From a virus: a DNA stretch of 27,460 nt. The stretch covers positions 1 to 27,460 of IMG/VR virus record IMGVR_UViG_3300042902_000025; one strand, written 5' to 3'. The position numbers and the translations under genes are program-made. Within the stretch, counting starts at the first letter, position 1, and every line of letters starts with the position of its first letter. Below the pieces are notes generated by a model. That model was not told the origin of the DNA and did not search any database. It saw only the letters and a program-made list of their open reading frames with translations. Below, piece by piece: positions 11,232 through 13,380 of the stretch.

Positions 11232-11259
11232 AAAAAAACCCCGTCATATTTCAGACGGG
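11232..11259 (-). terminator. Rho-independent terminator after replication cassette
   Basis: On the - strand CCCGTC pairs with GACGGG around an eight-base loop (TGAAATAT) and is followed by GG and seven T residues. An outer alternative pairing, AACCCC with GGGGTT (11263-11268 with 11237-11242), could compete. It lies 36 bases after the stop of the helicase-loader candidate and so separates the replication operon from the head operon. Confidence 0.85.
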
Positions 11260-11295: not shown

Positions 11296-11754
11296 TCACA
11301 GTCTTTGTTTCGGCAATAGTTCTAATGCAGTCTTGTAAGACCATCGTTGATGTGTACTCAAAGCCTCACCAGCCTCGTCACGCGCTTTTAATCTCCTAGC
11401 CCAAGCCTTATAGTCCTTATCTTTTTGAGGCTCTACAAGAGTCTTAACCATCTTTAATATTTCGCTATCTACAAGGTCAAGTGGTGCTTTAGGCGATTCT
11501 AAGTGTTTAAAATCAGGTTTTGGTGCTTGCTTGCATAACGTTTTAAATTGCATGAGGTTTGGGCAGTTATCAGGCAAGTTTTCCAATGCCCAGCCGATAG
11601 CTTTAAGATTGTCTTCAAACGTACTCAGCTCATGCGCCCAATGAGACTTGATGGTATTTGCATCAACGTTAGACCATTTGTTTTTAAACTCAGACCCGTA
11701 GCTTAGAGCAAGACGGTCAAATAGTCTGTCAATGACTTTAGTTGGCAATGTCAT
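11296..11754 (-). CDS. Replication protein, lambda P/helicase-loader-like candidate, 152 aa
   Basis: I choose ATG 11754 because AAGGA lies seven bases upstream; an in-frame ATG at 11787 lacks such a site. The N-terminus MTLPTKVIDRLFDRLALSYG then WSNVDANTIKSHWAHELSTF and LKAIGWALENLPDNCPNLMQ resembles proteins that follow O-type initiators in many phages, where lambda P recruits the host DnaB helicase. The C-terminus is basic and helical (DYKAWARRLKARDEAGEALS). It overlaps the initiator gene by 17 bases. The helicase-loading role is inferred from this order and general resemblance, not from a catalytic motif; there is no Walker A. Confidence 0.6.
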   Translation of the reverse strand: MTLPTKVIDRLFDRLALSYGSEFKNKWSNVDANTIKSHWAHELSTFEDNLKAIGWALENLPDNCPNLMQFKTLCKQAPKPDFKHLESPKAPLDLVDSEILKMVKTLVEPQKDKDYKAWARRLKARDEAGEALSTHQRWSYKTALELLPKQRL

Positions 11755-12607
11755 GCTGAATCCTTTGTGGTCGCTTGTAAGAGTCAAAAGCCTCGTCTAT
11801 GGTTTTCATTTCATCGTCATGCGCTCTAGTGGCAACACCAGGCGCTAACTCCTGCATACGCAATCTATCAGCTTTCTGCCAAGGTGACTCATACGTTTTC
11901 TGCACAACCTCAACGTTTAGCATTTCATCTTCCCAATGCTTGCCCTTCAACCAATTAACGCAGTCTTTAATAAACCCCTCTTTAACCTTGCGACTTTTCC
12001 TGTACTCAAGCAAACCTTCAGTTATCTTTTCTTGCAACTCTTTGTCAGGTGCTATGCGCTTCCATTCTTTAAAAGCCGCTGATTTGCCTTCACGTTTTGG
12101 GTAATCAAGCCAGAATTCCTCAAAGTCTGAGCTATATATATTTTTAGTAGTTTTATTTGAAGTTAATGGTAAAGATAAAGATGATGGTGATGGTGATGGT
12201 GAAGAGGCATTTTCAAGCATAGGGTCAAGCATAGGGTTTAGCATTGCTTGAGCATTGCTTGAAGCATCATTTTCCTTTTTCCATCTAGCTGAAGCTCCAG
12301 CCTTTGCCTTAGTTACAGCAGTCTCTTTGCGAGTCTTTGAGTCAATCAGCTCTTTCTCAATTCTTTTTTGTACCCAATGCCCATTCTCTATTTGAAAGTA
12401 TGCTAATAGTATGCGTCTAGCATTGCTCCAAGCATCAGGCGTCATCTTAGTTATTTGGGCTAACACCTCATCATCGTCAGGTGGTCTACCGTTTTTCCAG
12501 TAGTCCATCAATAGCAAAAAATATGCGCCATGCTGTTGAGTTGTCAATCTTGAAGTTGCTGAAAGGTAATCACCTATAAATATAGGCATCCAAATGTCAG
12601 TTTTCAT
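11738..12607 (-). CDS. Replication initiator-like protein with N-terminal DUF1376 domain, 289 aa
   Basis: The N-terminal 100 residues (MKTDIWMPIFIGDYLSATSR, QHGAYFLLLMDYWKNGRPPD, then DAWSNARRILLAYFQIENGHW) match DUF1376, a winged-helix-like domain in phage O-type replication proteins. A flexible linker about residues 115-150 is rich in Met-Leu, Ser and Pro. The C-terminal domain about 155-225 has FEEFWLDYPKREGKSAAFKEW, a motif also common in phage initiators. The linker DNA holds iteron-like repeats (12213-12267), the arrangement used by lambda O with its origin. ATG overlaps the upstream gene by four bases. Confidence 0.8.
   Translation of the reverse strand: MKTDIWMPIFIGDYLSATSRLTTQQHGAYFLLLMDYWKNGRPPDDDEVLAQITKMTPDAWSNARRILLAYFQIENGHWVQKRIEKELIDSKTRKETAVTKAKAGASARWKKENDASSNAQAMLNPMLDPMLENASSPSPSPSSLSLPLTSNKTTKNIYSSDFEEFWLDYPKREGKSAAFKEWKRIAPDKELQEKITEGLLEYRKSRKVKEGFIKDCVNWLKGKHWEDEMLNVEVVQKTYESPWQKADRLRMQELAPGVATRAHDDEMKTIDEAFDSYKRPQRIQHDIAN
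12120..12180. other. AT-rich segment next to iteron-like repeats (possible unwinding element)
   Basis: This stretch inside the initiator gene is strongly A/T (for example GCTATATATATTTTTAGTAG) compared with its surroundings and lies about 30 bases from the direct repeats. In lambda the origin couples iterons with an adjacent AT-rich region that melts first. Here the call is by analogy only. Confidence 0.35.
12213..12267. repeat. Iteron-like tandem repeats inside initiator gene (candidate replication origin)
   Basis: TCAAGCATAGGG occurs twice without gap (12213-12224, 12225-12236). After TTT, AGCATTGCTTG occurs twice without gap (12240-12250, 12251-12261), followed by AAGCAT. All share an AAGCAT or AGCAT core. 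The second repeat is 11 bases, so it is not simply a codon-level repeat. A diverged copy lies at 12419-12437 (17 of 19 bases equal to 12251-12269). Confidence 0.55.
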
Positions 12608-12867
12608 CTTGACACCTTTATTTTTCTACTTGTAGGGCTTGAAGATAATTTTGTTTTTTCTATCAACTTAGGCAAAGATAAAAGAAACAACTCTGCTTGT
12701 TCAATAGTTAGAAAAATTTTATTGTCACAATGATGTTCAACACCAGTATATTGATGAAGACATAAACGTTCATCTTCGTGCCTACTGCGCCATTGGTCGA
12801 TAACTATGTGCCTTTTTTTGCCAACCTCAATAGTAGTGTGAAAACTTAATTGGGGATATAAAATCAT
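12604..12867 (-). CDS. First gene of leftward replication cassette, 87 aa, unknown function
   Basis: ATG 12867 is preferred because GAGG stands six bases upstream; a longer frame to 12906 would start inside the structured RNA stem. The protein MILYPQLSFHTTIEVGKKRH then DQWRSRHEDERLCLHQYTGV and FLTIEQAELFLLSLPKLIE is not recognised. The stop overlaps the initiator ATG by four bases, so it is coupled to replication genes. It begins only 14 bases after the U-tract of the upstream hairpin, so its expression should depend on read-through or a second promoter. Three His and two Cys clustered at 45-60 could bind metal. Confidence 0.6.
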   Translation of the reverse strand: MILYPQLSFHTTIEVGKKRHIVIDQWRSRHEDERLCLHQYTGVEHHCDNKIFLTIEQAELFLLSLPKLIEKTKLSSSPTSRKIKVSR

Positions 12868-12880
12868 TGTAAACCTCAAT

Positions 12881-12993
12881 AAAAAAGGCTTCACCTGAAT
12901 TTGCAACCCTAGTTTAGGGTCTGGCGAGATAGGTACAGTAACCTACTGCAAATTCATGTGAAGCCTTACTGTTTTGAACCCTCGCCAAAGGAT
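12881..12993 (-). ncRNA. Predicted structured leader/small RNA with own promoter and U-tract end
   Basis: Read on the - strand. A 21-base outer stem (12947-12967 with 12885-12905, one mismatch) encloses a hairpin TAGGT-TACTGT-ACCTA (12930-12945) and a hairpin ACCCTA-AAC-TAGGGT (12906-12920), making a three-way junction. The strand between the hairpins, CTCGCCA (12922-12928), is the exact complement of TGGCGAG in the 5' tail (12981-12987). The loop ACTGT (12935-12939) complements ACAGT in the tail (12968-12972). Both could form as pseudoknots. The stem ends GCCTTTTTT, an intrinsic-terminator signature, 14 bases before the next start codon. No tRNA or riboswitch class fits. It is either an attenuator leader or a free RNA of about 113 nt. 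Confidence 0.6.
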
Positions 12994-12999
12994 ACCGTA

Positions 13000-13028
13000 A
13001 TTATAAAGCATAAATGTGCTTACCTCAA
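13000..13028 (-). promoter_or_regulatory. Leftward sigma70-type promoter for structured RNA and replication cassette
   Basis: The - strand carries TTGAGG (13023-13028), a 17-base spacer and a perfect TATAAT (13000-13005). Transcription would begin near A 12993, just upstream of the structured element. Perfect -10 and ideal spacing make this the clearest promoter of the window. Confidence 0.75.
13006..13021. promoter_or_regulatory. Candidate operator: dyad AAGCA-N6-TGCTT inside promoter spacer
   Basis: The inverted repeat AAGCATAAATGTGCTT fills 16 of the 17 bases between the -35 and -10 boxes of the leftward promoter. A protein bound here would block RNA polymerase. The half site AAGCA also appears in the iteron-like repeats of the initiator gene, so initiator autoregulation is as possible as binding of the Arc-like protein encoded at 13805. 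Confidence 0.45.
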
Positions 13029-13041
13029 TACTAGGGAAAGT

Positions 13042-13136
13042 ACCTATAAAAATAATTGCTATTTTTTACACAAGCGCCATTTTTCGTGAAATAATGTGTT
13101 TATGGCAATTGACACCAACAAGGAGAAACAAAATGA
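13042..13136 (+). promoter_or_regulatory. Rightward early leader, copy 1 of a duplicated control element
   Basis: Contains ACCTAT (13042-13047), TATTTTTTACACAAGCG (13060-13076) and the 19-base ribosome-binding segment ACAAGGAGAAACAAAATGA (13118-13136). All three are repeated in the same order at 16105-16178. TTTACA (13065-13070) with AATAAT 19 bases on is a weak sigma70-like pair. The first rightward gene starts at its 3' end. Confidence 0.45.
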
Positions 13137-13342: not shown

Positions 13343-13350
13343 ACAAAAAC

Positions 13351-13365
13351 GGGGGCTAGTCCCCC
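13351..13365 (+). promoter_or_regulatory. GGGGG-CTAGT-CCCCC hairpin upstream of second early gene
   Basis: A perfect five-pair G/C stem with five-base loop stands between the first two early genes, five bases before the AAGGAG ribosome-binding site. No U-tract follows, so it is unlikely to terminate. An mRNA processing, stabilising or translation-control role is possible. Confidence 0.4.
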
Positions 13366-13380
13366 ATCAAGGAGAGAACC

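Follow-up and report, generated by a model that had tools for sequence, protein, structure and literature searches.

A folded RNA of about 105–115 bases is predicted from sequence to stand at the start of promoters that precede early, mostly replication, genes in many bacterial viruses. Its copy in the stretch of DNA analysed here, a viral record of 27,460 bases (the window), is a 113-nt element on the - strand, 12993..12881 (AUCCUUUGGCGAGGGUUCAAAACAGUAAGGCUUCACAUGAAUUUGCAGUAGGUUACUGUACCUAUCUCGCCAGACCCUAAACUAGGGUUGCAAAUUCAGGUGAAGCCUUUUUU). The RNA family is new in that its architecture is uncatalogued, although the kind of function, a leader acting on termination, is already known. The chances are about even that the RNA acts in cis as a leader at which transcription ends by default, read-through occurring when a factor holds the fold made by its two pseudoknots, PK1 and PK2.

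Fold of the RNA in the window

The minimum free energy of the 113-nt RNA was −44.2 kcal/mol, compared with −25.3 ± 3.1 for dinucleotide shuffles (z −6.0), and none of 200 shuffles equalled it. The loop of the 5' hairpin, P0, is the beginning of the PK1 strand, and the outer stem, P1, which has 20 bp with one A.G mismatch in the window copy, is continued by A-U pairs into the U-tract (Table 1). An initial annotation of this DNA had named stems, hairpins, complementarities and a T6 run, all of which were found on the - strand where it had placed them; P0 was missing from its list of elements. Both of the potential pseudoknots that it had pointed out covary, with PK2 extending to 6 bp.

Table 1. 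Features of the RNA and its surroundings in the window (A8, 17-row alignment; R1, covariance model).
Feature	Position	Strand	Basis or remark
Whole RNA, 113 nt, predicted +1 at 12993	12881..12993	-	fold z −6.0, R1 match, covariation
P0, 5' hairpin AUCCUU-UGGC-GAGGGU	12978..12993	-	fold; 4 of 4 modelled pairs changed on both sides in relatives
PK1 5' strand UGGCGAG	12981..12987	-	pairs with 12922–12928; 7 bp
PK1 3' strand CUCGCCA, in junction	12922..12928	-	partner of UGGCGAG
PK2 5' strand ACAGUA, linker	12967..12972	-	pairs with P2 loop; 6 bp
PK2 3' strand UACUGU, the P2 loop	12935..12940	-	partner of ACAGUA
P1 5' arm, outer stem	12947..12966	-	18 of 19 modelled P1 pairs changed on both sides
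P1 3' arm	12886..12905	-	basal 9 bp paired in all A8 rows except one cell
P2 hairpin, G.U closing pair kept	12929..12946	-	covariation alignment
P3 hairpin	12906..12920	-	covariation alignment
U-tract, U6	12881..12886	-	U5–U8 in every type I copy
Sigma-70 promoter TTGAGG-17-TATAAT	13000..13028	-	ends 6 nt before the RNA
20-mer TTTTATAGGTACTTTCCCTA, operator-like dyad, upstream of −35	13032..13051	-	74 viral contigs
87-aa gene, first after the RNA	12604..12867	-	no Pfam or PHROGs match
Replication/primosomal protein, DUF1376, second gene	11738..12607	-	domain match
Intrinsic terminator after the replication genes	11240..11259	-	CCCGYCUGAAAYAUGRCGGG, compensatory changes in L004

Relatives of the RNA and searches of known families

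Close relatives of the window copy were recognised by an outer-stem 20-mer, which five viral contigs contain. Among the contigs bearing the other 20-mer, that upstream of the promoter, L054, L060 and L076 carry diverged copies with compensatory changes. A scan for stems in front of genes related to the 163-aa gene of the window added two further copies (L114, L117). BLAST with L114 led to Pseudomonas phage AH02 and two Manatee Spring records, and BLAST with AH02 to the record of Leptolyngbya phage Lbo-JY16. A covariance model (R1), built from six distant copies with the window copy not included, recovered the window copy at 57 bits (E 4e-13) and revealed the RNA, not previously known there, in L033, L019, L047, L066, L050 and L073 (E 1e-26 to 1e-22).

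Several candidates were discarded. The tail-junction pattern gave five close relatives and, besides these, L007 and L008, chance matches with a different fold; four matches to the promoter-spacing pattern (L100–L103) were without the RNA. An antisense match in L060 (5396–5502, -) was excluded as the mirror image of a palindromic stem, L035 (E 0.001) was not counted, having no tail-junction pairing by eye, and L016 (E 0.07) was dropped.

The initial annotation had known of no described class with this plan, and the searches agree. No Rfam 15 family scored above gathering for this RNA in the window, L117, L114, L060, L054, L014 and the cro-group loci, and the permissive search returned chance-like matches alone, far below gathering. 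The family model R2 found nothing in HK022 at E 10, and there was no model match in P4. No description of this RNA was found in the open-access literature; the E. coli genomes gave no match, and plasmids and Vibrio ICP1 nothing but chance matches of 20–27 nt.

Covariation and conservation

Comparison of the copies shows the fold, both pseudoknots, the terminator-like U-tract end and the coupling of the RNA to a promoter and to genes. Seventeen copies were aligned, from IMG/VR contigs, AH02, the Manatee Spring phage and the Leptolyngbya-phage record. In this alignment (A8), which was fitted to the model structure and favours it, standard pairs occupy 97.0% of helix cells and 29 of the 33 pairs have changed on both sides; the covariation score over four helices is 0.738 against 0.231 in shuffled data (reached in 0 of 500 shuffles), and controls with a slid structure were at most 53% paired. 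On an independent MAFFT alignment (A4), RNAalifold found double changes in 20 of 25 pairs.

The pseudoknots were left out of the covariance model and their strands assigned by hand, and the columns so counted were 96.5% paired (0/500). In PK1, UGGCGAG/CUCGCCA is replaced in relatives by UGGCAGG/CCUGCCA and UUGGCGG/CCGCCAA, and the variants comprise UUGGCGAG/CUCGCCAG, UUGGCAGG/CCUGCCAG, UUGGCAGG/UCUGCCAA and UUGGCGGG/UCCGCCAA. PK2 occurs as ACAGUA/UACUGU, CAGC/GCUG, GGAC/GUCC, AGAC/GUCU, CAGCA/UGCUG, UCAGU/ACUGA, CAGU/ACUG, GCAAU/AUUGC and GCAAUA/UAUUGC.

Every copy ends in a basal P1 stem of 9–10 bp followed by the U-tract, with U5–U8 in all 17 rows of A8 and a single basal cell unpaired, so that a GC-containing stem abuts a U-tract, as in an intrinsic terminator, in each of them. 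Conserved bases are mostly paired and few conserved bases are unpaired. The closing pair of P2 is G.U in 15 of the 17 copies, which fixes the coding strand as the - strand. The same pairs would be C.A mismatches on the other strand, which argues that this is an RNA and not a DNA element such as an origin or a recombination boundary. Such an element would fit the adjoining replication genes and a recombinant junction inside one hybrid copy (see below), but the promoter spacing is fixed, the U-tract stands on one side only and there are copies away from replication genes (AH02, Lbo-JY16); we consider this explanation extremely unlikely.

Among close relatives the sequence itself hardly varies. 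The 113 nt differ by 2–3 bases between the window and two distinct relatives even though the following genes differ, and shared neighbour genes have diverged at 26–45% of their third codon positions; together these indicate a strong sequence constraint on the RNA. Chance had been judged an improbable origin in the initial annotation, and this near-identity, the folding energy and the compensatory changes that keep the helices in distant relatives bear it out. Helices broken in related phages had been named there as evidence against the structure; in the relatives the helices held, with the exception of one hybrid copy. This is the first RNA of L076 (2704–2818, -), in which the 5' half is of one sequence type and the 3' half of another, one PK1 pair and one P1 pair being broken; an intact second copy lies at 2232–2348. 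The hybrid may be a product of metagenome assembly or a recombinant.

Promoter and upstream neighbours

The promoter with a perfect −10 box that had been noted at the start of the RNA is present in the window (Table 1). Of 16 distinct copies, 11 have a scored −10 box (counted at 8/12 or better together with the −35 box) with a 17-nt spacer and its end 5–6 nt ahead of the RNA, making the first base of the RNA the predicted transcription start. Promoters scoring at least 9/12 were found in 13 of the 16 copies, compared with 3.9% of shuffled sequences. The box is 8–14 nt from the RNA in AH02, Lbo-JY16 and MW202462; in L019 and L047 a low-scoring TTGCAG or TTGCGG with TAAGAT, at 17-nt spacing, is visible at 6 nt.

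The 20-mer TTTTATAGGTACTTTCCCTA, found in 74 viral contigs but at a single site in the 257 Gb of bacterial genomes searched, is a widely shared phage operator-like motif. It contains an imperfect dyad, TAGG-N-CCCTA, and occurs in varied contexts (L012–L080), frequently immediately before early promoters; a variant copy stands in tandem in L032 and L074. As a part of the RNA system it was set aside, being missing at L114, L117, AH02 and Lbo-JY16.

The RNA directly follows a Cro/YdaS-like gene in L033, L073, L047, L066, L050 and L117. In the first four the −10 region of its promoter overlaps the stop codon of that gene, and in L050 and L117 the gene ends 20–21 nt before the RNA.

This position recalls HK022 put, a phage RNA acting on polymerase in cis, whose putL site lies immediately beyond PL and whose putR site lies some 270 nt beyond PR (PMC9378689). 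As a put-like processive antitermination RNA, the folded 5' part would bind polymerase, which would then pass its own and later terminators. Like putL and putR, the RNA comes immediately after an early promoter or a cro-like gene, it is bound to no single downstream gene, a conserved intrinsic terminator follows later in the same operon, and no N or Q is annotated in AH02 or MW202462. However, the RNA has a conserved terminator at its own 3' end, a feature not described for put RNAs, its architecture differs, and the family model has no match in HK022, so that we hold this reading to be unlikely.

Look-alike types II and III

RNAs of two further sequence types, possibly homologous to the type I copies described above, share the plan of P1, U-tract and tail pseudoknot. 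Type II (L024, L061, L078) has a long P1, a U-tract and a 7-bp tail-junction pairing that covaries (AUUAGAC/GUCUAAU, CUUGAAC/GUUCAAG, AUUGAAC/GUUCAAU). It was first picked by R1 and R2 at a weak E of 0.004–0.06, and the PK1-type pairing is present though it lies outside the model. The type II RNA lies after a P22-Cro/YdaS-like gene (Pfam-tested in L024, to which L061 and L078 are very similar), and several hundred non-coding bases with a promoter of their own precede the next gene. A conserved non-coding stretch between the RNA and that promoter is seen in L078 (957–1240) and also in L024, L044 and L061. In type III (L097, L083) it is the loop of a 5' hairpin that is paired to the junction (UAGCAGA/UCUGCUA, UAACGCG/CGCGUUA). 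These RNAs are followed immediately by RF02932, the Betaproteobacteria-1 sRNA (L097, 7–127, -; L083, 1751–1871, -), a separate element with no match to the leader RNA.

Genes downstream of the RNA

All type I copies have a start codon about 10–14 nt past the U-tract, on the same strand; in the window it is the ATG at 12867, 13 nt after T6. That the RNA lies upstream of replication genes, as first annotated, is right for the DUF1376 gene, which is second; the first gene encodes the 87-aa protein, for which a neighbour-gene search gave no relatives. The order on the - strand of the window is the 87-aa gene, the DUF1376 replication protein, a 163-aa gene, the terminator, the terminase (63% identity to the Methylophilales phage Venkman terminase) and structural genes. 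The close relative L004 has a different terminase gene; the equivalent terminator (2815–2840, +) is kept there in spite of the unrelated late genes that follow.

The gene after the RNA is of the replication-initiator type in most copies, the exceptions being the 87-aa gene (window, L076, L114), gene 51 (AH02) and a 354-aa protein (Lbo-JY16). As DUF1376, another replication-type protein and these three all follow the RNA, the RNA is not a sensor specific to one gene. Nor does the RNA have the character of a ligand riboswitch, as its conserved bases are mostly paired and the downstream genes vary. In L076 two promoter-RNA-gene cassettes stand in tandem, the module having been duplicated with its gene. 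In L014 and L022 a near-identical rep gene (98%, DUF1376) stands behind a different leader, in which a 5' hairpin loop is complementary to an internal segment, there is no U-tract, and the GGAG of the ribosome site is paired in a long stem. This leader swap suggests cis control of rep.

The place of the RNA about 10–14 nt before a start codon on its own strand would be unexpected for a free, stable, trans-acting small RNA (protein-binding, decoy or regulator), whose downstream gene would live on read-through, and with almost all conserved bases paired there is no antisense seed. Such an RNA would explain the full anatomy of an sRNA gene, the very compact fold with a buried 5' end and the near-invariance among close relatives. 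The type II copies, separated from the next gene, fit it better than they fit a cis leader. We regard this explanation as doubtful.

A proposed model of conditional termination

We infer termination at the U-tract, competition between PK2 and basal P1, and regulated read-through. Transcription would start at the first base of the RNA, and the nascent transcript would fold P0, P2 and both pseudoknots (P0 loop with junction, linker with P2 loop). P1 would then zip from the junction downwards, its upper half being compatible with PK2, until closure of its basal 9–10 bp beside the U-tract displaced PK2 and ended transcription before the early gene. A factor holding the PK1/PK2 fold would allow read-through by polymerase and activate the operon; candidate holders are RNA polymerase itself, as for put, a host factor or a phage protein.

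The expected conflict is one of geometry. The 5' strand of PK2 ends 0–1 nt before P1, and P2 with PK2 amounts to 10–12 bp (28–34 Å), shorter than the 18–20 bp (48–53 Å) of P1, so that closing the base of a straight P1 would leave PK2 unpaired. This suggests that PK2 and the base of the terminator stem are sterically exclusive, hence the switch, presuming that the helices are straight and A-form; bending of P1 at its mismatch could remove the conflict. The initial annotation had all elements forming at once, which is geometrically doubtful, as PK2 and the P1 base should compete. Computed duplex energies are −9 to −15 kcal/mol for basal P1 and −2 to −5 for PK2, and as basal P1 is far the stabler the default is predicted to be OFF, that is, termination. 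No alternative helix with the P1 arms was seen, and P1 is too stable for a visible RNA-only antiterminator.

The four functions first envisaged were a transcription attenuator, a ligand- or protein-sensing leader, a processive antitermination RNA and a free regulatory RNA. The data favour a cis-acting conditional terminator, a put-like or a free RNA being less likely. More tentatively, the family may be an RNA-only switch in which a loop-linker pseudoknot opposes the base of its own terminator and polymerase or a single factor locks the pseudoknotted state, thereby switching on replication genes, in wide use among phages beside or instead of Cro-type control and in at least three sequence types.

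Comparison with known systems

To our knowledge, control of transcription elongation has been described for only a few phage RNA elements. HK022 put, which binds the zinc-binding domain of the RNA polymerase beta' subunit and suppresses termination, is by analogy the nearest functional counterpart. Both are phage cis RNAs at early promoters or after cro that fold on the nascent transcript and act on termination (for the leader, a predicted function). Whereas put consists of two stem-loops of about 70 nt, the leader has a 5' hairpin, a three-way junction, two pseudoknots and a built-in terminator.

P4 CI and P1 c4 are phage leader RNAs with self-complementary segments that control an early operon, and the leader resembles them in such segments and in its predicted control of the operon. 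If it acted as they do, processed leaders would pair with the tails of new leaders and cause early termination, as autoregulation or immunity. The 5' tail is complementary to internal segments, and intermolecular pairing is possible; but the complement lies within the same structured RNA, there is no match to Rfam C4 and no model match in P4, and the window genes examined included none recognisable as a repressor or integrase. We think this very unlikely.

In lambda, pR', 6S RNA and tR' form a series of promoter, short terminated RNA and operon (Q/AlpA-type antitermination), and the leader has the same order. Lambda-type control resides in promoter DNA and a loader protein, whereas in the leader the RNA fold itself is under selection and the 20-mer is missing from several copies. 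For AlpA, passage of a downstream terminator is described (PMC9371919). Attenuating riboswitches and leaders likewise place a structured leader and an intrinsic terminator before a gene; in the RNA described here, by contrast, the P1 terminator encloses the whole core, no alternative antiterminator helix was seen, few conserved bases are left unpaired for a ligand, and the downstream genes are not of one pathway.

Because the family is compact, with covariation-supported pseudoknots, and occurs in cultured, sequenced phages such as AH02, described as lytic (PMC8567786), its structure, termination and trigger are testable at once, and the covariance model can be used to annotate such leaders.

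One further element of the window is a strong hairpin at 13348–13368 (GGGGGCTAGTCCCCC), between two early + strand genes and with a T-run on the - strand, similar to one in L090 and L093 (GGGGGACTAGCCCCC). Its role may be to terminate transcripts of the - strand or to influence how ribosomes enter on the + strand.
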